From: Asparagopsis taxiformis
Taxonomy: Eukaryota; Rhodophyta; Florideophyceae; Bonnemaisoniales; Bonnemaisoniaceae
NCBI GenBank assembly: GCA_030407315.1
Contig: JALQPE010001703.1
Location: 1 to 64,000 of the forward strand
Direction of reading: 5' to 3'
Length of the DNA stretch: 64,000 nt
Positions 29,902 through 62,036 of this stretch are shown here, piece by piece. A program made the translations under genes and the position numbers. Below the pieces are notes generated by a model, which searched no databases, had not been told where the DNA came from, and saw nothing but the letters and a program-made list of their open reading frames with translations. The stretch's first letter is position 1. Every line of letters starts with the position of its first letter.

Positions 29902-30517
29902 TTTTGAAACGAAATGGTCGCTTGCCGAGCGTTTATTGAATCTGCGAGCTCACTACATTATTTGTATTCTCGCCGAGGTGCGCCGGCGGTGCTAAGGACA
30001 GCCTGTTAATAGCTGCTCCAGACAGTCTGTCACTGACAGTCTGTCCTGGTAAGCACCCGCTGCCAATCTGGTACACGTGGGCTTCTCTATCATATCGTCC
30101 ACACGTGTACACTAATCATAACATTTTCCCTGTGCCATGATGGCAACCCATCCTGGCTTTTCTAATTACTAATTGAAAGTATGACAAACAAATTGAAACT
30201 TCAGATGCTGTTATCTCCGTGAAGAAAGGTCGTAGAAGCTTCGGAGAAGTTGCTACCCGACTAATTCGGGCACGCTGAACATGATGAGATAGGTTTCGGA
30301 GCGCCTAGAGCACTCCTTCTAGGAGAAATCGATGGTTAAAGTTTTCTCACGTAACTGAGCCCCTCAGGGCCTATTACAGTGAGTGCTTCAACCGTTTTTC
30401 AACGAGGAACACGATGAGCCATATTTCAAGGCTCCTAGAGGACTCCTTCATCGAGATTTTCACAGGATATTCTCGAGATTGAGTGCTTCTGTTGCTGCGA
30501 CTCAATTATTCGCAACA
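29902..30517 (-). repeat. 3' LTR of copia element
   Basis: On the - strand it begins TGTTGCGAATAATTGAG and ends GTTTCAAAA. It appears identical to 35971-36586. Confidence 0.93.
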
Positions 30518-33500
30518 CTCCCCCTCTGTGACAAGCTCGATGAAGCACCAGATGTAGGGAGGTTTTGAAGTCCGATGAGGTCTTTGAATTTGTGAAGGAG
30601 AAGACGGGGAAGAGGTTTTGTGAGCAAGTCGGAAGCCATTTCTGATGTGGGGCAGTATTGCATTGTGTAGAGGTTTTTGTCGAGGCTATGGCGTACGAAG
30701 TGGTATTGAATGTCAATGTGCTTTGTTCTAGTTCCGGACACATCATTTCGAGCCATATTGATAGATCCTTGGTTATCGACGTTGATGCAGATCGGCTCGT
30801 ATTCTTCGCTTGCTGTGATTGAGCGGAAAATGTTGCTAAGCCAGATTGATTCTTTTACAGCTGCACACAGAGCCATGTACTCCGCTTCGGAGGAGGAAAG
30901 AGCAACGCAACCTTGTTTGCGTGACTTCCAGCTGACGGCCCCTCCCGCCATTAGGAAAACGTAACCACTGGTGGATTTTCGATTGATCGTGCAGCCACCC
31001 CAGTCGGAGTCACTGTACGCGATCGGGTGGAACGGTTTGTCGGCTTGATAGAGCAAGCCCAGATTCCTTGTTCCATTCACATAGCGGAGTACGCGCTTAA
31101 CTGCTGTCCACAGTCTTGTTGTCGGATGTTCCACATGTTGGGCAAGCCGTCCCACAGCGAAGGATATGTCGGGGCGAGTCCCGACCGAGAGATACATGAG
31201 GCTACCAACAGCGCTTCGATATAGTGTAGAGTCTATAGGTTCCCCTTCGAGGTCTGCAGGACTTATCTGCGATTCCATTGGGGTGACTACGGGACTCGAG
31301 TCAAGCATCCCGAAGCGTTCTAGCACCTTGTGGACATAACGACTCTGGCTGAGGTGCAGAGTTCCTCTTGACGAGCTGCGAACGATCTCGAGTCCAAGAC
31401 AGACCTTGGCTTCTCCGCAGTCTTTCATTGAGAACCTTTTATTGAACTCCCCTTTTAGCCAATCAAGTATTCGGCGATTACTTGATGCCATGAGTAGGTC
31501 GTCAACGTAGAGGGTAATGATCACCATTGCTCCTCCTTCATACTTGACGTAAAGGCATGGATCATACGGAGAAGTCTCGAATTTGAGGATACCGATCACG
31601 AATTCGTCGATCTTTGCGTGCCACTGTCTCGGAGCTTGTTTTAGACCGTAGAGTGCTCTTTGCAGTTTACACACATGGTTCGGGTATTGCGGATGAACGA
31701 ACCCTTCTGGTTGCTCCATGTAGATATCTTGATCGAGATCACCGTATAGGAAGGCTGTCTTGACATCCATTTGATCGCAATGGAGGGATTTGTGAGCAAC
31801 TATAGCGAGGAACGTGCGGAGAGTGCATAGTTTTACAACCGGAGCGTATGTTTCTTCGTAGTCAACACCGTATTGTTGTTCAAAACCACGAGTGACAAGT
31901 CGTGCTTTGTACTTCACACCGTTCGTTCCGTCGTCGTTGACAACATCCTTGATTTTGAAAAGCCATTTGCAGGAGAGAAGATTGCGGGCTTCACTGCGAG
32001 GGACAAGAATCCAGGTCTGGTTGGTGTAGAGAGATTCCATTTCGGAGTCTATTGCTTTGAGCCAGAGCTTGCTATCCTCCCCCTCTGTCGCGGTAGTGAA
32101 GGTGAGGAGTTCCGGAGCAATGCTAACGAGTGCAGTCGGTTTCCACCATTGAGTCGGGGGCTTTCGAGGTCTTGAAGACTTCCGAGGAGCAGATGGAATG
32201 GAGAGGTTGCTCGGGGAAGCCGGTATAGTAGGATGAGCAGGACTGCTTGGAGAAGCAATGGGGCTCGATTCTCCCCCGGAGATGCTGGGAGACTGTGGAG
32301 GCGTGGGCGACTCGTCATCCGATTTTTGCATGCGGGGTTGAGGATGGTCCGGTATGTAGCTCAAGGTGTTGTCGTCATCAATATATGTAGAGTCTTCAAC
32401 AGAGCGAGGTTGAGTGGTTTCATCCGATGCCGATTCGTCGAAGACGACGTCCCTTGAGATTACGACGGTGTTCGTTTGGTCGTCCCACAGCTTGTACGCT
32501 TTCTGGGTTTTGGAGTAACCGATCATCATGGCAGGAGATGAGCGACTGTTTAGAGATGTTAGGCGTATTTGTGGGACCTTGTACCAACACTGACTACCGA
32601 ACACTTTTAGATGAGAGATATCAGGTTTACGACCCATCCATAATTCGAACGGAGTTTTATCTGAGGGTATCCCACGGCTTGTGACACGATTTCGGACGTA
32701 TGCTGCGCAGTCAAGGGCTTCCGCCCAGAAGTCTGCAGGGACAGAATTGTGATGGAGCATGGCACGAATGAGGTCTTTTAGAGTCCGGTTCATCCGTTCC
32801 GATACACCGTTTTGCTGCGGGGTATAGGGAGCGGTAGTCTGGCGAGTGATTCCGTGAGTTATGAGGAACTCGCTAAACTCGTTTGAGAAATATTCACCGC
32901 CACCATCCGAGCGAAGTTGGCGGATTTTTCGTCCTGTGTGTGTCTCTGCAGTATTTCGAAAGTGCTGGAAAGAGCTGAAGCTGTCTGATTTCAGTGCGAT
33001 AGGATAGACGGAAAGCCAACGGGACTTGTCGTCGATAAAGGTAACGAAGTAACGTGCTCCCCCTTTTGAAGATGTTTCCATAGGTCCGGCTACATCAGTG
33101 TGGACAAGGTCAAGTAAACCGGTTGCTCGAGTATCAGATGCATGGGGGATTGGTGCTCGAGCCATTTTACCGGCCAGGCAGCCTTTGCACGGTTGCTGGG
33201 TTGTCGTCCCACCGGCAATTTGGAGACCTTTAACGAGGGAGTGTTTTGCCATATGCGAGATTGCTGCATGGTGTACGTGTCCGAGGCGACGATGCCAGAG
33301 TTCCAGGCTGGCCACACATGCCACCTCAACGTTATGTTCGTGAGGAGTAGTGTGTAGAGTATAGAGTCCATGTCGACGAGTCCCTAAAGCAACTATGGAG
33401 TTGTTCTTTTTGATTTCGACAGTGTCATTTATGAAGGAGAGGGAGAGACCACGACTGGTGAGGGTGGAAACTGAGATAAGGGAGAACACGAATGAGGGTA

Positions 33501-34599
33501 CGTGCAGCACGTTGCGGAGTATGCACGTTGAAGTGACACCTTTTACTATTATAGGTAGGTGGATATCTCCTCGACCGATGGCTGTGGAGGAGGACTTGTC
33601 GCCCATGGTAACGTTGAAAGGGATCTCTGACGTATACGTTTTGAACATGGATCGGTCGAAGGTGATATGTGAGGTGGCCGCAGAGTCAATATGCCAGACT
33701 GTTGCCTTGCGTTCGTGAGAACTGTTGCACGCCTCGATAGCACTGCTGAGTAAACATACGTAGTCGACTTCTTCGGATGGTTCCATTGCTACTGCAGCGG
33801 TTTGCATTGGAACGCTGGTTGCTGGAGATGTGGATCCTCGAGGCTTGTTACTCCGAGAATGATTGGGACGACCATGCTTTTCCCAGCAATAAGGTTCGGT
33901 ATGGTTGGTTCTGTGGCAGTGAGAGCAGTATTTTCGATTGGCACGACGTGGTTGTTTCCCAGATAAGTTGACTGATGCTGATGCTTGTTGAGATGTGTGT
34001 GAAGAGTTTCGTAGCATGCTAGTTCTTCTTTCTTCCTGCAGTAAGCGGCTGCGCACCTTGTCAAAGGTGAACGAAGGGTCGTCATCTCCAATTGCATCGA
34101 GTGCCGTGATCAACGTTCGGAAGGATGATGGGAGGCCGTTGAGTACAGCCATGGCCATTTCCTTTTCGTCAATCTTGACGTCCATTGACTCGAGGTGGGA
34201 AGCCATTTGACGTACACGATTGATGTATACAAGCATTTGCTCCCCTTGCTTCATTGTTGCAGTGTAGAAGTCACGACGAGCAGCGAGCTTGTTCAGAAGA
34301 GTGTGACGTTGATGGACGTTGCAGATCTCTTGCCACATTTCTAGGGCGGTAGTAGTGTGGCGAACGTTCTTCAGCATTTCGTCTGACAGACTGATGCCGA
34401 TTGCCATTCGAGCAGTCTTGTCTTTACGAGTCCATTTAGACAATGCCTCTGGATCCTCTGGAGGAGGGCGGCATAGAATGGGATCGATCATGTCGTCCAC
34501 CTCGCGGTGGCCGAGGATGAGCTCCATCTTTTGCTTCCATGAGTGGAAGTTGGAGTAATCCAGCTTTTCAATGCGAATGCCGGATGAATTGCTCTCCAT
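30502..34599 (-). CDS. gag-pol: Copia Gag-Pol polyprotein
   Basis: One frame of 1365 codons from ATG 34599. Gag (UBN2-like helical region, residues 10-200) is followed by a CCHC knuckle (CSHCHRTNHTEPYC, 225-238) and a protease with HIDSAATSH (Asp305). Integrase has an HHCC finger (WHRRLGH...CKGC, about 435-475) and catalytic Asp502, Asp565 and Glu601 (35 residues between the last two). A Ser/Pro-rich linker (760-815) precedes the RT with QMDVKTAFLYG and YVDD (1031-1034). RNase H has AYSDSDWGGC, SSSEAEYMAL and DNQG. The order PR-IN-RT-RH defines Ty1/copia. No motif is missing. The last codons and the stop lie inside the 3' LTR, and the polypurine tract is translated as part of the C-terminus. 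No frameshift separates gag from pol, so Gag excess must come from another mechanism. Confidence 0.97.
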   Translation of the reverse strand: MESNSSGIRIEKLDYSNFHSWKQKMELILGHREVDDMIDPILCRPPPEDPEALSKWTRKDKTARMAIGISLSDEMLKNVRHTTTALEMWQEICNVHQRHTLLNKLAARRDFYTATMKQGEQMLVYINRVRQMASHLESMDVKIDEKEMAMAVLNGLPSSFRTLITALDAIGDDDPSFTFDKVRSRLLQEERRTSMLRNSSHTSQQASASVNLSGKQPRRANRKYCSHCHRTNHTEPYCWEKHGRPNHSRSNKPRGSTSPATSVPMQTAAVAMEPSEEVDYVCLLSSAIEACNSSHERKATVWHIDSAATSHITFDRSMFKTYTSEIPFNVTMGDKSSSTAIGRGDIHLPIIVKGVTSTCILRNVLHVPSFVFSLISVSTLTSRGLSLSFINDTVEIKKNNSIVALGTRRHGLYTLHTTPHEHNVEVACVASLELWHRRLGHVHHAAISHMAKHSLVKGLQIAGGTTTQQPCKGCLAGKMARAPIPHASDTRATGLLDLVHTDVAGPMETSSKGGARYFVTFIDDKSRWLSVYPIALKSDSFSSFQHFRNTAETHTGRKIRQLRSDGGGEYFSNEFSEFLITHGITRQTTAPYTPQQNGVSERMNRTLKDLIRAMLHHNSVPADFWAEALDCAAYVRNRVTSRGIPSDKTPFELWMGRKPDISHLKVFGSQCWYKVPQIRLTSLNSRSSPAMMIGYSKTQKAYKLWDDQTNTVVISRDVVFDESASDETTQPRSVEDSTYIDDDNTLSYIPDHPQPRMQKSDDESPTPPQSPSISGGESSPIASPSSPAHPTIPASPSNLSIPSAPRKSSRPRKPPTQWWKPTALVSIAPELLTFTTATEGEDSKLWLKAIDSEMESLYTNQTWILVPRSEARNLLSCKWLFKIKDVVNDDGTNGVKYKARLVTRGFEQQYGVDYEETYAPVVKLCTLRTFLAIVAHKSLHCDQMDVKTAFLYGDLDQDIYMEQPEGFVHPQYPNHVCKLQRALYGLKQAPRQWHAKIDEFVIGILKFETSPYDPCLYVKYEGGAMVIITLYVDDLLMASSNRRILDWLKGEFNKRFSMKDCGEAKVCLGLEIVRSSSRGTLHLSQSRYVHKVLERFGMLDSSPVVTPMESQISPADLEGEPIDSTLYRSAVGSLMYLSVGTRPDISFAVGRLAQHVEHPTTRLWTAVKRVLRYVNGTRNLGLLYQADKPFHPIAYSDSDWGGCTINRKSTSGYVFLMAGGAVSWKSRKQGCVALSSSEAEYMALCAAVKESIWLSNIFRSITASEEYEPICINVDNQGSINMARNDVSGTRTKHIDIQYHFVRHSLDKNLYTMQYCPTSEMASDLLTKPLPRLLLHKFKDLIGLQNLPTSGASSSLSQRGSVANN
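30518..30528 (-). other. Polypurine tract, copia element
   Basis: On the - strand cagagggggag lies directly before the 3' LTR TGTTG. It overlaps the coding frame. Confidence 0.85.
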
Positions 34600-34781
34600 G
34601 GCTCTGTATTATGTCTTATCTGTTCGATCCTTCCAAGTGGACAACCGATAGTCGTCTAGGACCAAGCTGGGATCTATAGGATAAAGACTTTTAGCTAAGA
34701 GCTAGATGAGTGGAGAACAAGAAACAAGGTTTATCAAAGAGAAATCAGCTAGATTTCTAGTGTGTCTAGAGAAGGGGAGTA

Positions 34782-35298
34782 CTACTTATCGGAGGACGAG
34801 GAGGCCTTAGAGGCTTTAGCGGCTTTGAGGGTCTTCTCGATGCCACGGTGGCGACTACCGCGGAGGTGGTTGTCGAACTCGCTCTGGGTGCGAACGATGA
34901 CACCGCAGGGCTTGCAGACCTTGAGACCACCTTCCTTGAGGCGTTCGATAGTCTTCTTGTGTCTAGAGCCGCTAAAGTGTGCGACTCTAGACTCGGCGGA
35001 GTTGAGGAAGACGTTGCAGTGGTGACACCTCGAGCGGTTTTCCTTCTTGTGAGCGGCGTACTTCTTCTTGTTATCCCTCCTTTCGGCGATGCTATAGGCT
35101 TTGCGGAAGACCCGGTCTTGAAGAGACTCCCCCTCGCGACGAAGCCTGGGAGGCTGCTCGTCGGTGCGCGGTTCCACGCGGTCTTCGTCACTGCTAGACA
35201 CTGCAGAGAGAAGAGAACAAGAGTGTTAGAAGTTATACCGATCAATACTAAGGTCTAAACCTTGAAATAGACCGAAAGGTGAAAGGTATAAACTTACT
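34782..35298 (-). CDS. Zinc-finger accessory protein, start codon created by splicing
   Basis: A 139-codon frame ending at 34782 encodes two perfect C-x2-C-x12-H-x5-H fingers (CHHC...HFSGSRH and CKPC...HLRGSRH). These are of the U1/JAZ type, which bind RNA or double-stranded RNA. The N-terminus is acidic and Arg-rich and the tail is Lys/Ser-rich. No ATG exists anywhere in or upstream of the frame. Removing the 35201-35297 intron joins the last base A of exon 1 (35298) to TG at 35200-35199, giving ATG TCT AGC with A at -3 and the frame exactly correct. The protein would therefore be made only from spliced RNA. It lies 183 nt before the Gag-Pol ATG. Role not known; a regulator, RNA chaperone or silencing suppressor is possible. 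It could also be a captured host gene. Confidence 0.7.
35201..35297 (-). other. 97-nt spliceosomal intron in the copia leader
   Basis: Sense-strand donor CAA|GTAAGT (35297), branch-point CTAAC at 35229-35225, a pyrimidine tract (tcttgttctcttctctctg) and acceptor GCAG|T ending at 35201. All four signals are consensus-like, and the branch A is about 25 nt from the AG. Confidence 0.75.
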
Positions 35299-35478
35299 TG
35301 TGGAAACCGTTGACAATGAAACCAAACGTTCGATGAGTTTATTCGGTGATAGGTAGAGGCTATAACGCTATACCGATCAGGACAAGGTCACTGTCTTACA
35401 AGAGCAGGACCGAGTTGAGAAAGGTATAGACTAGCCAGTATAAAAGCAAAGGTCGATTCCAGTAATTGGGCCTTCAGT

Positions 35479-35552
35479 GGCCCGGTAGCCGAGTCGGTTG
35501 GACGGTCCACGGAGATGTATAGATCCTTGGTTCAAACCCCAGCAACGACGCT
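35479..35552 (+). ncRNA. tRNA-like segment (Pol III A and B boxes), antisense to the copia leader
   Basis: TAGCCGAGTCGG (35486-35497) fits a box A and GGTTCAAACCC (35529-35539) fits a box B; their spacing equals that of a class I tRNA. The D-stem pairs. The acceptor, anticodon and most of the T-stem do not, so this is not a functional tRNA gene. It could be a tRNA-derived SINE head or a tRNA mimic. The 3' side to about 35710 contains repeated gatgacagg / cagtgtgacac words. Confidence 0.45.
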
Positions 35553-35950
35553 GGCCAAACTTTTTCCTTCGCAGGAGAACCGAAGATGAAAGAATGATGT
35601 CACCGGATGACGATGACCCAGAGACGGATGGCAAGATGACAGAGCGTCAGTGTGACACAGTGTGGATGACAGGATGTCAGTGTCAGTGACAGGATGACAC
35701 AGTGTCGGCGCGGAGCGGCGACAGAGGTGCGCGGCGGCCGCGGAGGAACGCGATGATGGCCGCGGGAGCGTGGAGGAGACGCTCAGCAAGTCCGCGGAAG
35801 CGCGGGAAGGCGCAGAACGGAAGAAAAGCGCGCAAAACAAGAGACGAGAAAACGAGGCGAGAACGAGACGGAACGAGACGAAATAGGTAAGAGAACGCCG
35901 ACGCAAACGACGCACTTACCGAGGCGCGAGAGATATTGAAACGACCTACG

Positions 35951-35970
35951 AGCGCGCTGGGCCCATAACC
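35951..35970 (-). other. Primer-binding site for half-molecule initiator tRNA-Met
   Basis: On the sense strand GGTTATGGGCCCAGCGCGCT follows the 5' LTR with no gap. It is complementary to the anticodon stem-loop of eukaryotic initiator tRNA-Met (CTGGGCCCATAACC), not to a tRNA 3' end. Drosophila copia and yeast Ty5 use such an internal half-tRNA primer. Confidence 0.85.
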
Positions 35971-36586
35971 TTTTGAAACGAAATGGTCGCTTGCCGAGCG
36001 TTTATTGAATCTGCGAGCTCACTACATTATTTGTATTCTCGCCGAGGTGCGCCGGCGGTGCTAAGGACAGCCTGTTAATAGCTGCTCCAGACAGTCTGTC
36101 ACTGACAGTCTGTCCTGGTAAGCACCCGCTGCCAATCTGGTACACGTGGGCTTCTCTATCATATCGTCCACACGTGTACACTAATCATAACATTTTCCCT
36201 GTGCCATGATGGCAACCCATCCTGGCTTTTCTAATTACTAATTGAAAGTATGACAAACAAATTGAAACTTCAGATGCTGTTATCTCCGTGAAGAAAGGTC
36301 GTAGAAGCTTCGGAGAAGTTGCTACCCGACTAATTCGGGCACGCTGAACATGATGAGATAGGTTTCGGAGCGCCTAGAGCACTCCTTCTAGGAGAAATCG
36401 ATGGTTAAAGTTTTCTCACGTAACTGAGCCCCTCAGGGCCTATTACAGTGAGTGCTTCAACCGTTTTTCAACGAGGAACACGATGAGCCATATTTCAAGG
36501 CTCCTAGAGGACTCCTTCATCGAGATTTTCACAGGATATTCTCGAGATTGAGTGCTTCTGTTGCTGCGACTCAATTATTCGCAACA
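35971..36586 (-). repeat. 5' LTR of copia element
   Basis: Appears identical to 29902-30517. It contains the internal repeat-rich word cagacagtctgtcactgacagtctgtcc.. (in part) and the copia promoter. Confidence 0.93.
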
Positions 36587-53545: not shown

Positions 53546-54000
53546 GCCCCTTCTTGTACTCTCTTCACGACTGTTCATTGGGTACTGATTGATTTGAACG
53601 CAACCGGTGAGTCTTTTGGCGCGTGGGCGCGAATTTATTCGCACCCCTTCAGTTAACCTTCCAAACGTTACGTCTACACGATTTCCTGTCACTCTTCTCT
53701 GCTACTCATCTACTACTCCTTGTAGTACTCCAGCACCTCAAAGGCAATTCAGATCGTGCATCTCCCTGCTTCAACCCAACTCCCCCTGCTTTCCAAGCTT
53801 CGCTCTTCGCATCTCTCTCTGCTTCTCCCGCTTTGCATCCATCTGTCTCCCCACAGTGACAGTGTCCCATCCCTCTCTCTCTCTCTTCAATCCTTGCTCT
53901 CCCGTGCCCTCTCTTTCTCTTCACTCCCTGCCCTTTTCGTGCCCACTTCACCTCTATACACCATTCAGAGTTCAAGAGCTTGTTTATCCCACCCACAAAC

Positions 54001-57000
54001 ATGTCTCATCGTCAACGCTCTCGTCTCGCAGCTGCATCTTCCCGCGCTCCAGCTCGGGAGCTGACAGTCCCCGCGATGCCCCGGGCTGGTAGCACGCTTG
54101 CGAACTACGAGTTCCGGCAGATGACACTTCCGATTGCGGACATTCATGTCACGGAAGAAACATCGCGCGAGGTTGATGAGTCGCATGTAGATGTGTTGTT
54201 TCAGAAGATGGTTCTTGAAGGCTTTCAGACCTCTTCCGTGGGCTCCGTGACTGTCGTTGGTCTAGCCCACGAGTCCGACGAAACACGCTTCTACATCGCG
54301 GATGGTCTCCATCGTCGTGGCGCTCTTGTCCGATCCAAAGCGGAAGGAGTTGAACGTCTGGCTTCTATTGTGGACAGCGTTCCTGTTCAGGAAGCGTTCA
54401 GGCCAGATGGACAAGCCATGACAATGGAAGACGTGCTCTACCTGAGTCAGCGGCTGAACGAACTGGTGCACACGGTTTTACCGACCACCATCCGCGACCG
54501 TATTCATGCTATCATCAGCATATACAACTGCAACTTGACGTACGCGAAGGAAGGGGAAAGGAAACTCTCCAGTATGACAGCTTCGCAGCTGTGCAACTGG
54601 TTCTTCCAGCGTCACTTCAGTAGCATACTCAGGAAGAGTACGGTGACGTCTATCGTCAATGTGGCTCTGAACATGAGACGTTCACCACGCACGTACGAGG
54701 CGTACAAGATGGCCTCTGGTAGGAAGGAAAATGAGGTTGGAATCAGCCTTCTAGTGCTGAAGGACACCGCGTTCACAAAGGCTGAGGACCGTGCCAGTGA
54801 GCTGATGGTTAGGTGCATTCACTACCGCTCTGTGAAATTGCTCCAGTCCTTTGGTCGCATCCCAGGTCTCCAGCTCAGGGTGTATCTCAATTACATCAGA
54901 GATTTCTACCTGGTAATCCGTGAAGTCGCACCCAAGGTTGGGATGACTACGGACGAGCTGGCAGACCTGGAGGACCTCGAACCGGATGGAACGGACATGG
55001 TCCCGACCTGGAAATCCGTGTTCAAGCGCATGGTTCAATATGAAGAAGAACCTGTGCCAAAACAGGAGAAGAACCACGAGCGTCGCCGAGAAGATTTCCG
55101 AACCGTCATCCTGCAACGTTTCAACATTGCACCGGATCGTGAGACTCCGCCCCCTCCTCCCGGAGCATCTGGCGATGCAGTGCTTGCCACTGCGGCCAGT
55201 CAAGGCGCAAAAGATGTGGGGAAGGAGAGCGAGAAAGCGGCAGAGAGCGTTCCTGCTCCTGCCCCTGTGGCATCAGCCACTCCTCCGAAGTCACCATCAC
55301 AGGTGACTCGGCAGGCTCGCTCTCCGACCCAATTCGGGGAGAATATCATGGAACCTCTCCCCGTTCCCCTTCCCTCACAACCCCTTCCTGAGGACGAAAT
55401 CAATCCGATGGACATTTCTCCTCCTGACTCCCAAGCCAAGCCGGACTCAACAGCCCGCGCCCCTTCCCCCTCGAAGCCCAACTCTCCTCCCCCTCCCCCT
55501 TCCCCCTCACAACCCGACTCACCCCCCCCCCCCGCTGTTCCCGACTCTGCTATCGCCACGGAACAGTAGAACCCCGAAACCTCGGTTGAAGCTTCTCAAC
55601 CGCAGGGGGGTGGTGGGGGGACAGTAGTTTCACGCTCTGTGCGCATTCCGCCCGATGAAACTACGCCACGCCCCTTTCCTTGCTCGCTTGGATCACACTG
55701 TCGCTTCGCCGGCTATGCCGCTGTGCACAAATGCACAGCGTGCAACATTCAGCCAGTACACAACCTGTGCGACTATCCTCGAGTATATCACCTCATCCCC
55801 ATCAAGTACCTCAACAACGGTGAGCGAGACATGGTGTTCGTCTGCTCCCGTGAGTGCTACGATGGCCGTCAACCGGATGACCCCCCTTCTTGGACCCCTC
55901 CTGCAGGGGTCACGTTACAAGAAGCGTGGGAAGGTGATGCGTACAATCCTTTCGAAAAGGACGCGTCCTCTACCGAGTCTGCTGAAGAAAAGGATAAGCA
56001 GACCGGTGAGGCTCCGCGGAGTACGATGGGAGGGAAGGCGCCCATATCCCGGGAACCAGCCAAGAAAACTGCCTCTGGAACACCGCGGCGGGGAGAAAAG
56101 AGGAGGAGAGAGCCGACCACTCCTCCTCCGACTCGGATGACTCGGTCCAAGACCAGAAGTGCCGCTATCGCAGAGCAACTCATCGCTCTCGGTAGCCCGT
56201 CTTCTCCCCCTGTCTCCCTTCCGCTTCCTGCACAGCCACCCTCATCTGGCGAAAAGGAGCGTGAAGGTGAGATAGAAGACGGCGAAACCCCTACAAAGAC
56301 GAAGGTGACTTCCAAGGGGTTTCGGGTACACAGGTATGAGGACGAGCAGCCACCGCCACCTTCCTTTCTCACGGAGCAGACCACGCTTGCCCAAGCTGCT
56401 ACGTTCGTGCGTTCAATTTCGGGTCTGCTCCATCCTGAACACCGCTCTGGGTTCATCATGACGAGTGGGGAGGTGGAGGAGATCAGGGAGGATATCAACT
56501 CCGCGGCTGGTGGTACATCCGAGGAGAGCATTGTTTATTGGGAGCGGGCAAGGGCTAGTATTGATTTCGATGGATAAATCGTCCTCGAAGACATACTAGG
56601 AGCTTCTGATGTACGGTCTGCAATCCACGAACTGCTCTCTGGGTTTGCCCAAAAGTTCGATGACAATGTGGAAGGGGCGTGGGGCACGATTCTGAACTCC
56701 GGTTCAGCTGCCCAGGATGCCCGGGGTGGCGCGTCTCGCCAGCGGTACATGACCCCCCACTCGGCTGTCATTGAAGACCTCGACGGGGAGGAATCCATGT
56801 CGCTGGCTCATGACAAGGTTTCCGTGGATGTCATCCTCGCAATTATAGCGGAAATGTTGCACTTGGAGGATTCCGTTTCATCTTTGAACGGATTCAAGAA
56901 AGGCTCCAAGCTGCGCTTTGGGAGGACAGGACTTCGGATGCTCCTGACGGGTTCCAACTGTACTCGTCAGATCCCGCATCTCGACTTCACGTACCCAGGA

Positions 57001-57480
57001 CCGCCACGCGAGGAACCGAACCGCTATTGTGGGACCCCTGCACCAGACCCAGACTATTCTTTCATAGCTACTGGTGCAGTTGGGTCCCCAATTCTGGTAC
57101 GACCGCGGAGTCATGCCTTCCTCAACGCCCCTCGTGATGCCTTCCTGGCTATCTGGCCCCATCTCCATCCAAAATTGGTTTGGATTCCACCCTTCTCTGT
57201 TCTCGTGACTCGTGGTGACGTAGAGCACGCTGGTGCGGGATGGCAGGATTACGACTTCGTGAAGGACAAAATTTCTAAGACTGGAGTACAATACGGTCAT
57301 CACATTCGAGTCCATAGCATGGCTGTACGTGATTCTTCCGAGCTAGTCAATGATCTCGTCTACGCACCGGTGCAGAGTGACGACCCCAATCGTCTGCCGA
57401 AACCTTACGAGTTCGCACACGACTTTGAGTCGGACGATGAGGTACCGGATAGTAGTGAAGATTACATCACAGTTGAGTAG
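54001..57480 (+). pseudogene. ParB-like / zinc / 2OG-Fe(II) dioxygenase-like fusion, two in-frame stops
   Basis: From ATG 54001 (caaacATGT, A at -3) a single frame of 1159 codons runs to TAG 57480. It is interrupted only by TAG 55567 (codon 523) and TAA 56575 (codon 859). Neither later segment has an ATG near its start, so these are not separate genes. Residues 35-110 are ParB/sulfiredoxin-like with the signature DGLHRRGA (101-108); a helical region follows to about 340, then a Pro/Ser-rich linker. After the first stop there is a Cys/His module (PFPC, CTAC, VHNLC, CSREC; about 560-625) and a charged linker. The last part has HLD (His993, Asp995), GDVEHAGAGW (His1076) and RVH (Arg1103), the iron and 2-oxoglutarate ligands of the dioxygenase superfamily. 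A 42-nt GT-AG micro-intron could remove the TAA. DNA binding plus base oxidation is inference. Confidence 0.65.
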
Positions 57481-59315: not shown

Positions 59316-62036
59316 ATGGCGCAGCCACAACCCCGGCACGGGCTTGTCGAAACGTACAGCGAAGATGGGCCGATGCATCTATCTGACAAGTGCGGAAACG
59401 GAACCATTCTATGGGTTGATCCCGCTCGCGTTGTTTGAATTCCTGCTATCGCAGGGGCTAGCACCCCAGCCTCCGATGTCACATCCGTAGTACATCTGGA
59501 TTTCGAACGTCTCTATCTGTACGGTAGCATTGCGGACAATGGTGACGTAACCTTGGTGGGAGGCATGGACGTGTGCGAGGAGGTGTGGTCGCGCCCCCGA
59601 CGGAACACATCGAGATATTTACTTCGCATGAGCTACGAATCTATTACTACCAAACCACATACGCTTGCCTCTATTCTCTTTCATCTCCTGGAGAGGGAAA
59701 GGATTATTCCGTTCTACGAAAGTGTAGCAATAGTCGCTCACATGCGAGACTGTTGGCATGAAGCTGAGAAGAAAGAGGATCATGTGCCCCTTGCAGAACG
59801 TTCGCTCACAGCGTTTCGAAGGGCTGTGAGCAGTATGTACAAGTTTGACCTGCCAGCGAATGCTTCAATCGTTCTGGATAAATGGTTCTCGTATGCCTAC
59901 CATCGTCACACCTTTAATATTGTGCAAGCAGTCCGAAACTTCACCATTTCTGCTGGTGAAGATGGTAGTGTAGATATAGACACACGGGTATGGGATCTAT
60001 TCCTCACGAGCTGTGGGTTGCTGGATTTATCCGTATCCTTCTTTATTCCCGTGTTTGTCCATGAGCGTGATGAGCAATCAGCAGAGGATCCACTCAAAAA
60101 CTCTCAGAGTCCTGGACCACCACTTCCAGTTCAGAAAGAGTTCTACACCGAGCATAACTTCTCCCAGTCCGCGATTGGTCGAGATGTCTTCTCAAGACAA
60201 TCACTAGCATGCCAATTCTTCGTTTCACAGACCCAGGAGCGCGCTTCGCATCAAGATAGCTGGACAACTCCGAGACTTACCACAAATTTCGAGAGGGTTG
60301 TAGTTCTCATGGCATTGATACAAATGGACCGAGACTGGAAGTTGCAGGCAGAATCCCGGCCACGCTCACGTACAAGAACGAGGTCTTCGAATGGACCCAC
60401 GCCGCTTCTCAAGAAGGATAGTCCGTGGACTGCCCAGCGTCTTGGATATGGTATTCATGTGATTCTGAAGTCATGGGATGTATTGGCAAAGTCGCTAGGG
60501 GCTACCAATACCGAGGAGCTCTTGCAACCGTACCTTCTGTACGACCAGAGAGTATTCACGTACCACGTCCTGGACTCGGAAAATAGGGGCTTCGCACCGC
60601 TTCGAGAGCTGAAGACTTTGTTGCACGGCAGAGGAGCTGTTCGAAGAGTGCAGCACTCGGCAAGCATCTCGAGTGCGGCTGTCCATCGTACGCTGCTGCA
60701 AGATGCTCAGATGCGCCTCTGCGCAACGTCCTTCTGGGAGCACATAATGACGATCTGTCGGCACAAAGAATTGTTCGACCAAACCGTTTCTTCACCGCGA
60801 GCAATACCTTTCCTACAGGGCTTCCAGGCGTCGACTGGTTCCCCGGATGCTGGGAGGTTTACGACTATTCGGGCTCTGGGTATGGTTGAAAGGCAACTCA
60901 CGGCATTCAGCCTCACAGAAGAGCCACAATCAACGCCCGACCCTAATGAAGAGCTGTTCGGAGACACTGAGAGAACAGCTTCTCCAGTACGGGATTCTCC
61001 GCCCGGCGGGAACGGAACGAGCCCGAATGCTAAACGCAGACGACTAGATGAAAGCCCTTCTGGTGCAGGAAGCTCGAGCAGGAATAGCGGTAACAGCGGT
61101 ACCGCCGAAGCGGCCAGAGCTGATATAAAATCCATGCGTGCAGAAGATGAAGTGTTGATTCCTCCAGAAATGGACAACATGAAAGGATCTGTCCTGCATA
61201 CTTTCAACTGCAGCTTCAGAGACCTTTTGAAGAACTATGACGCTGTTGACAATCCTCGAAAGCCGCAAATCCGGGAAGGTGCTCAGTTGGTACTCACTGA
61301 CCCGCCGTACAATACTTGGCGTATGTCTGGCAGAGGAAACTCTGGTTACGATGTCCTCCGTCAGGAAGAAATCGAAGACACGGTAGCTGAAATTTCCAAG
61401 GTGACGCGCAAGGGTGGTCATGTTCTCATATTCACATCTGCTGCTCTGTTCTACAATTGGGTATACGAGCTTCGCAAAGTGAAATACTCTACGGGTAGTC
61501 CTATGTTCGCGGTTGATTCGCAGCCTATCGTCTGTACTCGGAGCCCCACCCATTTTACTTCGCCTCCATATAGGATTACAACCAGTTTGTTAAATATGGT
61601 CGAGCTGGTTGTACATGCTACGAAGCTGGGTAAGGGTAAAGAAGGCTGGGGGATGGTGAACTACCGAAATGCAGGATACATCCCTTCTAGGTTCAAGGCT
61701 TGGACAAATGTCATCGACAACATCCCGCGCATCACAGCATCGGAGACAGTGAAATATTTGGACAAGGACAAGAAAAAGGTTACGTTGCGCCCCGAGCAGA
61801 AGACCATAGCTCTCATGCAAGAGCTCATTGGACGTTTCTCAAACCAGGGAGACTTGGTCGTGGACATGTTTGCTGGCACTTTCTCTACTGCAGTTGCATG
61901 CCTTACTATGCACCACGGTCAGTACAGGAGGTTTGTGGGGTGTGAGAAGTTCACGGACTGCTTTGAACTATCCCTTCCTAGAGTCAATCTTGCATTTCTG
62001 CAGCACAGGAAAAGCAAGTTTTTGAAAAACCAGTAA
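59316..62036 (+). pseudogene. Beta-class (DPPY) DNA N-methyltransferase with N-terminal extension, one in-frame TGA
   Basis: The first in-frame ATG is 59316 (G at -3, G at +4). The frame continues to 62036 (906 codons) with one stop, TGA 59436 (codon 41); the sequence before and after it reads as one protein. An alternative is a shorter protein from an ATG after the stop (59565). Residues 80-560 form a helical region I do not recognise, followed by a Ser/Gly-rich linker with KRRR. The catalytic part has motif IV LTDPPYNTW (Asp662-Tyr665), then GGHVLIF, and later RPEQKTIALMQELI and motif I VVDMFAGTFSTA (Asp850-Gly854). Motif IV before motif I defines the beta class of N6-adenine or N4-cytosine methyltransferases. 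The product base cannot be told from sequence. It lies just right of the repeat-bounded ParB-like gene on the same strand. Confidence 0.75.

Follow-up and report, generated by a model that had tools for sequence, protein, structure and literature searches.

A putative splice-made start codon for a zinc-finger protein in the leader of a red-algal copia retrotransposon family

In a copia retrotransposon family of the red alga Asparagopsis taxiformis, a start codon made by splicing very probably allows one transcript to serve for either Gag-Pol or a zinc-finger accessory protein, to judge from a comparison of genomic copies. The family would carry a facultative intron in its leader. The unspliced RNA, free of AUG from the primer-binding site (PBS) to Gag, would be translated as Gag-Pol and also serve as the genome. 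Removal of the 97-nt intron would join an A to a TG, forming the first AUG after the PBS, with A at -3, and the spliced RNA would then yield a protein of 139 residues whose long N-terminal helix is followed by two JAZ-type fingers. We infer from the genomic letters that splicing occurs and is partial. If this is true, the start codon of a regulatory protein in a copia element arises by splicing, which thereby chooses between that protein and the structural genes, within a leader of about 1.4 kb that is AUG-free. Such a switch would touch the open question of how compact retroelements split one transcript among translation, regulation and packaging; it is readable from the sequence, and the comparative evidence is strong, with more than 300 listed copies in three diverged subfamilies.

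The element and its split start codon

The window, as we call the whole stretch of 64,000 nucleotides that was analyzed (positions 1 to 64,000 of contig JALQPE010001703.1), contains a copy of the element on the minus strand, with the following features.

35971..36586, minus strand: 5' LTR, TGTTG...CAAAA, identical to 29902-30517
35956..35970, minus strand: PBS GGTTATGGGCCCAGC, adjoining the 5' LTR and complementary to the middle of tRNA-Met(CAT) (anticodon region)
35363..35429, minus strand: leader block 1, 67 nt, a predicted hairpin with GUAAG in its apical part, resembling the intron body
35298, minus strand: final exon 1 base, supplying the A of the junction ATG; the end of exon 1 reads GGTTTCCACAA
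35201..35297, minus strand: putative intron, 97 nt, ending in TTCTAACACTCTTGTTCTCTTCTCTCTGCAG
35297-35292, minus strand: donor GTAAGT
35229-35225, minus strand: branch site CTAAC
35203-35201, minus strand: acceptor CAG
34782..35200, minus strand: exon 2 and zinc-finger ORF, starting TGTCTAGCAGTGACGAAG (TGTCTAGC at 35200), with the TG of the start codon, 138 codons and the stop TAG at 34784-34782
34600..34781, minus strand: spacer between the zinc-finger ORF and Gag, ATG-free
30502..34599, minus strand: Gag-Pol, a single ORF with its ATG at 34599 and the domains gag_2, gag_pre-integrase, rve and RVT_2
29902..30517, minus strand: 3' LTR, identical to the 5' LTR

The two LTRs are 616 bp each and 100% identical, and GTCAA, read from the flanks, is present on both sides of the element as a 5-bp target site duplication. 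The combination of LTRs, 5-bp duplication and adjacent PBS is that of a copia element, as is the order of the domains in one ORF, with PF14223, PF13976 and PF00665 before PF07727. The usual (not defining) TG...CA ends are absent from the LTRs, which start with TGTTG and end with CAAAA if the 5-bp duplication sets the border. The tRNA-Met stretch complementary to the PBS, GCTGGGCCCATAACC, occurs at 8 places in the same genome at one mismatch, and ARAGORN calls a tRNA-Met at the one of these places that was fetched. Metazoan members of the GalEa clade of copia have the PBS TGGTAGCAGAGC, according to the available portions of two reports (PMC3587641, PMC5445492); compared by PBS alone, the window element, with GGTTATGGGCCCAGC, differs from these members.

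The preliminary description of this DNA placed the end of exon 1 at 35298 and an intron with its signals at 35297-35201, and direct reading of the minus strand bears this out. The joined exons read CACA-ATG-TCT-AGC and open a 139-codon ORF that ends at 34782; the zinc-finger ORF itself contains no ATG, and the claim that A|TG is formed in frame with an otherwise ATG-less ORF thus proved correct at the level of single bases. Two possible donors of a long intron were also considered, the GTAAGT near 35925 and the GTAAG in block 1; joining either to exon 2 yields no ATG. A GTG stands in frame directly before TCT in each of the subfamilies A, B and C described below, straddling the 3' splice site. 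In A, the unspliced frame upstream of it is open for just 9 codons before the branch-site TAA closes it; with so short a frame, no longer conserved upstream coding stretch is seen.

Elsewhere in the window, the plus-strand stretches 59439-62036 and 53860-57480 hold a set of long ORFs: one encodes an N6/N4 DNA-methylase domain (PF01555) and sits near three consecutive others that have no Pfam match above cut-off. Together they are possibly a large mobile element.

Three subfamilies, their splice signals and their ATG-free leaders

The genome searched comprises 141.5 Mb in 3156 contigs. In it, the 12-mer across the donor, CCACAAGTAAGT, is found at 194 places, compared with 6 for the reversed control. 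Three subfamilies are present, and the window copy belongs to subfamily A. The excess of 194 over 6, together with the recurrence of the arrangement in two further diverged subfamilies, exceeds what chance would give. A protein search gave 495 candidates, of which the best 150 all share 95–100% identity with the window copy (subfamily A), 147 of them being free of internal stops; scoring the best 150 only biases both figures upward. Subfamily B was recognized among 100 listed places, in the 24 that have the exon 2 start without the A donor, all of which were fetched. Among the best 150 of nearly 500 candidates in each case, B occupies at least 66 places (94–100% identity) and C, which first surfaced in the search for B and was then extended by a search of its own, at least 74 (95–100%). 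The listings for this one red-algal genome thus exceed 300 copies (194 A donors, 66 B and 74 C), some of them possibly assembled twice. All three subfamilies come from this one genome, and further, more distant subfamilies may exist.

Several observations concern the assembly as a whole. Copies show matching spacing on neighbouring contigs (C2151/C2152 and C2011/C2012), which may be haplotypes or repeats assembled twice, inflating the copy counts. Head-to-tail arrays of 3-4 or more element units lie on contigs C465, C2674, C1907 and C344, with a nearly constant spacing of about 5950 nt in B and 5918 in C, as if adjacent units share one LTR. Contig C469 resembles a plastid genome and holds 11 of the 13 phycobilisome-family matches in the assembly, which mark the host as a red alga. 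Five of seven tubulin matches lie in open frames of 466–491 codons, so the host genes look intron-poor.

In the databases, the letters of proteins P0001 and P0002 match A and B, respectively. Their initial M was considered as a sign of a joined CDS and rejected, since an in-frame GTG precedes the ORF and a bacterial gene caller would print it as M. A distant homologue of 172 aa, P0005, comes from an 18-kb contig in public data and keeps both fingers at 48–55% identity; its predicted start lies 5' of the finger region, so that this relative may have its leader arranged in another way. Viral contigs that were searched contained no relative.

Donor, branch site, pyrimidine tract and AG are all conserved, as expected of a spliceosomal intron. 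The donor is GTAAGT in A and C and GTACGT in B, and the acceptor is CAG in A and B and TAG in C. Among ten representatives, the intron measures 97 nt in A, 96 in B and 95–99 in C, and in eight of them CTAAC lies 25–28 nt before the acceptor; the tract that follows CTAAC varies in its letters and stays pyrimidine-rich across the subfamilies. A larger set of 93 copies comprised 62 A copies, the 24 without the A donor and 7 added later, after exclusion of 12 duplicates, locus L101, tubulin pieces and a tRNA. In this set the A followed by a donor (GTAAGT or GTACGT) is present in 91 copies, the scan having required that A, and the donor is absent from two (L050, with an insertion, and L051, truncated). 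The acceptor, CAG or TAG, is found in 93 of 93 and the branch site, CTAAC or TTAAC, in 90 of 93, and the base at -3 of the junction ATG is A in all 91 donor-bearing copies. The sample is biased, as 36 of the 62 A copies were selected partly on the donor pattern; the donor is nevertheless present in 26 of 26 A copies chosen by protein search only, and the B donor in 22 of the 24 chosen for lack of the A donor. From donor to branch site the subfamilies are 89–93% identical, whereas adjacent synonymous sites are 69–82% different. One A copy (L066, contig C62) has a 41-nt deletion that leaves an intron of 56 nt, with the branch site gone and the donor, acceptor and ORF intact. The preliminary description had tied its reading to the state of other genomic copies, and in these all three subfamilies retain the split ATG, the two fingers and the signals of the intron, dN being far lower than dS.

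Reverse transcription and integration of a spliced RNA would leave intronless copies, expected as CACAATGTC or CAAAATGTC. The intronless A junction has no match in the assembly at up to 3 mismatches, and none of the three subfamilies yields an intronless junction at up to 2 mismatches, a search that heavily mutated copies would escape. Six matches at up to 2 mismatches were discarded: the letters of five show unspliced CAG copies, and the sixth (L101, C476:31095) is unrelated. Such a lack would mean either that unspliced RNA is selected or that splicing seldom or never takes place. BARE is likewise without spliced DNA copies, as stated in the available part of PMC3735527.

The leader of the window copy, from 35963 to the Gag ATG at 34599, contains no ATG in 1364 nt, where 8.4 are expected, and only one of 2000 dinucleotide shuffles is as low. 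The statement in the preliminary description that unspliced RNA has no ATG before Gag-Pol is nearly right and holds between the PBS and Gag: the PBS itself has one at 35966 (opening a six-codon uORF), the only one between the 5' LTR and Gag, and further ATGs lie inside the LTR. Whether these are present in the RNA depends on the position of the start site. Both the PBS and the Gag start are seen in 66 of the 93 copies, with no full C leader among them, and the interval is ATG-free in 60 (42 of 47 A and 18 of 19 B). Compared with shuffles, seven complete leaders (two A and five B) all have no ATG, with 7.2–11.0 expected; a C piece of 930 nt up to Gag has none, with 6.9 expected; and L099 has one, with 6.3 expected. 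Of the eleven loci fetched for this comparison, L063 and L067 are without the Gag start, and L075 is without the PBS, its 16 ATGs including those of the LTR. In the 5' half of the leader (window 35449-35934, minus strand), BLAST finds no match between A and B, though both flanks are conserved, and this half is ATG-free in B too. Such avoidance of ATG is in keeping with ribosomes that scan unspliced RNA as far as Gag. With the leader free of ATG, the first AUG downstream of the PBS in a spliced RNA would be the one at the junction.

The zinc-finger protein and predicted RNA structures

Representatives of A, B and C are 80–81% identical in protein sequence in each pairing over 138 codons. Between subfamilies pN is 0.101–0.124 and pS 0.69–0.82, corresponding to a dN of 0.11–0.135 and a dS of 1.92 or saturated. 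Differences between A and B fall on the three codon positions as 16/12/78 of 138 codons in the zinc-finger ORF and 9/8/50 of 98 codons in Gag. These counts argue for purifying selection on the zinc-finger protein between subfamilies, apparently equal in strength to that on the adjacent Gag codons. Within A, in 60 of the 62 copies, variants confined to one copy number N18:S11 and those shared by several N5:S18 (Fisher p 0.005), L068 and L082 (truncated or misaligned) having been left out; with these two included, the counts are N77:S27 and N8:S18. The once-seen ratio of 18:11, against 3.5:1 expected without selection, is not a clean neutral yardstick. In an uncleaned count within A, the shared variants of the first 33 Gag codons are N12:S5, without synonymous excess. 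The last 60 nt of exon 1, which lie between block 1 and the conserved donor-to-branch stretch, are 51–64% identical when their many gaps are counted, and their aligned letters differ less than synonymous sites do, so the whole leader region may be slow-evolving. The alternation of conserved and diverged blocks is hard to explain by recent exchange between subfamilies.

The two fingers are C58-x2-C61-x12-H74-x5-H80 and C95-x2-C98-x12-H111-x5-H117, the C-x2-C-x12-H-x5-H spacing previously reported for them. Their designation as U1/JAZ-type stands for its second half: in the window copy zf-C2H2_jaz (PF12171) scores 32.7 bits against a Pfam cut-off of 22.6, with all zinc ligands in place, while zf-U1, at 16.9 against 22 bits, stays below. 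The zf-met family also exceeds its Pfam cut-off. All six aligned members match zf-C2H2_jaz, and all six match zf-U1, at E 0.01 or better, as measured by E value and not by cut-off. The best of five AlphaFold models has a mean pLDDT of 73 and a pTM of 0.42 (the other four have a pLDDT of 46–61) and predicts a long helix at residues 26–54 and two fingers with a block confidence of 73–88. Foldseek gave no significant match, CTCF being the top row; a single finger matched finger 3 of human JAZ with an rmsd of 0.8 over 34 columns (probability 0.97, E 0.45). Pfam describes zf-C2H2_jaz as double-stranded-RNA-binding, and the JAZ structure 2mkn, a Foldseek row, bears a title to the same effect. The family match and the resemblance in predicted fold weakly suggest that the protein binds RNA. 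It is like JAZ/ZNF346-type proteins in having C-x2-C-x12-H-x5-H fingers above the Pfam cut-off, and unlike them in being short and retrotransposon-borne, with two fingers and a long N-terminal helix.

Block 1 of the leader is 91–99% identical between subfamilies, and its predicted fold is better than that of shuffles in each of them (z -4.0, -2.6 and -4.1). Its alignment has a single compensatory pair, which one sequence breaks, and a further pair is broken in B. The resemblance of block 1 to the intron body beats 1000 shuffles in A and C, and ties with the best shuffle in B. Within its predicted hairpin lies the donor-like GTAAG (GTAAGT in the aligned B and C copies), which may be a U1 decoy or an alternative donor giving RNA without the ATG. 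In the predicted intron fold of A and C, the donor side (AGUU and AUACC) pairs with GGUAU and AACU just before the branch site. The fold of the B intron is no better than shuffles (z -0.01), and the alignment of the intron hairpin shows no covariation. We put the intron hairpin forward as a hypothesis resting on sequence conservation.

Alternative readings and known systems

The main rival to splicing as the means of expression is that the ORF is translated from unspliced RNA, starting at the in-frame GTG at the 3' splice site or at a near-cognate codon, and that the "intron" is a structured leader element that is retained. Subfamilies A, B and C share the GTG directly before TCT, their leaders are highly conserved and, by prediction, partly structured, and P0001 and P0002 begin with M there, presumably because a bacterial gene finder would so print a GTG. 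We nevertheless regard such initiation as improbable, since it predicts neither a 5' donor nor CTAAC 25–28 nt before an acceptor, neither a pyrimidine-rich tract whose letters change nor the change of the acceptor from CAG to TAG, nor, in three subfamilies, an A at both the final exon position and -3. It is harder still to believe that the ORF is a captured host gene in the course of being lost, expressed by chance and without a role in the element. Gag-Pol is complete without the zinc-finger ORF, and LTR elements are known to carry additional ORFs whose role is unclear (PMC7264820, from the part of it available), but the codon-position counts given above for the zinc-finger and Gag codons show selection that looks equally strong on both, and shared variants within A are mostly synonymous.

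Given a protein made from spliced RNA, we tentatively propose that it binds double-stranded RNA, most likely the conserved hairpins of leader and intron, and acts as a Rev- or CERV-like factor or as a packaging selector that favours unspliced genomic RNA; the architecture of the element is compatible with an export factor of this sort. The position of the intron would mark genomic RNA; in retroviruses the packaging signal is located behind a splice donor. Recognition of the retained-intron hairpin by an export or packaging factor would explain both the conservation of the intron and the lack of intronless copies, although the latter is equally expected without any splicing. A serious possibility, short of probable, is that splicing happens and the protein is made, and that its function is another one: that of a double-stranded-RNA-binding counter-defence protein, the main rival for function, or of a DNA- or chromatin-binding factor. 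The Pfam description and the title of 2mkn suit a silencing suppressor too, and the top Foldseek rows include DNA-binding fingers such as those of CTCF; what these functions leave unexplained is the conservation of the intron body and of the similar leader block, which rank highest in this respect among the non-coding stretches. More doubtful is the fullest form of the export reading, in which a Rev/RRE-like circuit is built into the intron of a non-retroviral LTR retrotransposon, the spliced-out hairpin being recognized by the splice-dependent zinc-finger protein, with the start codon as the switch and the 1.4-kb leader AUG-free for its sake. If so, the protein would be made only from RNA minus the hairpin and would act only on RNA that retains it.

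The preliminary description knew of no copia element with this arrangement. The open-access literature searched, in which most subscription papers are not included, agrees: in the parts available, it describes no copia element whose leader encodes a zinc-finger protein or whose start codon is made by splicing, while spliced copia RNAs and a spliced accessory protein of an LTR element are known. Splicing of Drosophila copia removes Pol, favouring Gag, and is not known to provide an accessory protein; the internal initiator-tRNA primer site of that element is of the same kind as in the window. Its spliced Gag RNA is cited in the available part of PMC3735527, and the likeness to our family is that of a copia element with a spliced RNA, here a predicted one. 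BARE and copia were the only splicing cases demonstrated in the copia superfamily by 2013, according to the same part of that report, which describes in BARE1 of barley a facultative intron of 104 nt near the gag end whose removal stops translation just after Gag (PMC3735527). The two elements share, as far as these passages go, membership of the copia superfamily, an alternative intron of about 100 nt and a spliced RNA that gives (here, would give) a single protein. In BARE1 the intron lies near the gag end and the product is Gag only, whereas the present intron lies in the leader and would create a start codon and open an extra protein.

Additional ORFs of plant LTR elements most often lie between pol and the 3' LTR, as given in the portion of PMC7264820 that we had, and resemble the present case as extra conserved ORFs beyond gag-pol. 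The main text of that paper has no occurrence of "zinc finger" or of "start codon".

Cer1 of C. elegans is a Ty3/Gypsy-type element. Its CERV protein is made from a spliced mRNA and is needed for export of the unspliced RNA; it has 517 aa and is encoded by five exons, of which exons 1-3 are in the frame of gag, according to the excerpts available of PMC10309623. What both systems have in common, on this account, is an LTR element with an accessory protein translated from spliced mRNA and a genomic RNA that is unspliced, which in the alga is the predicted state. CERV has a cysteine-rich loop, possibly an RNA-binding zinc finger, a likeness to the fingers described here when the two are set side by side by description and not by sequence. 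The export role of CERV is experimental, whereas that of the algal protein is a hypothesis drawn by analogy. The algal family, if its switch is real, suggests that splice-controlled accessory factors arose outside retroviruses and Cer1 too.
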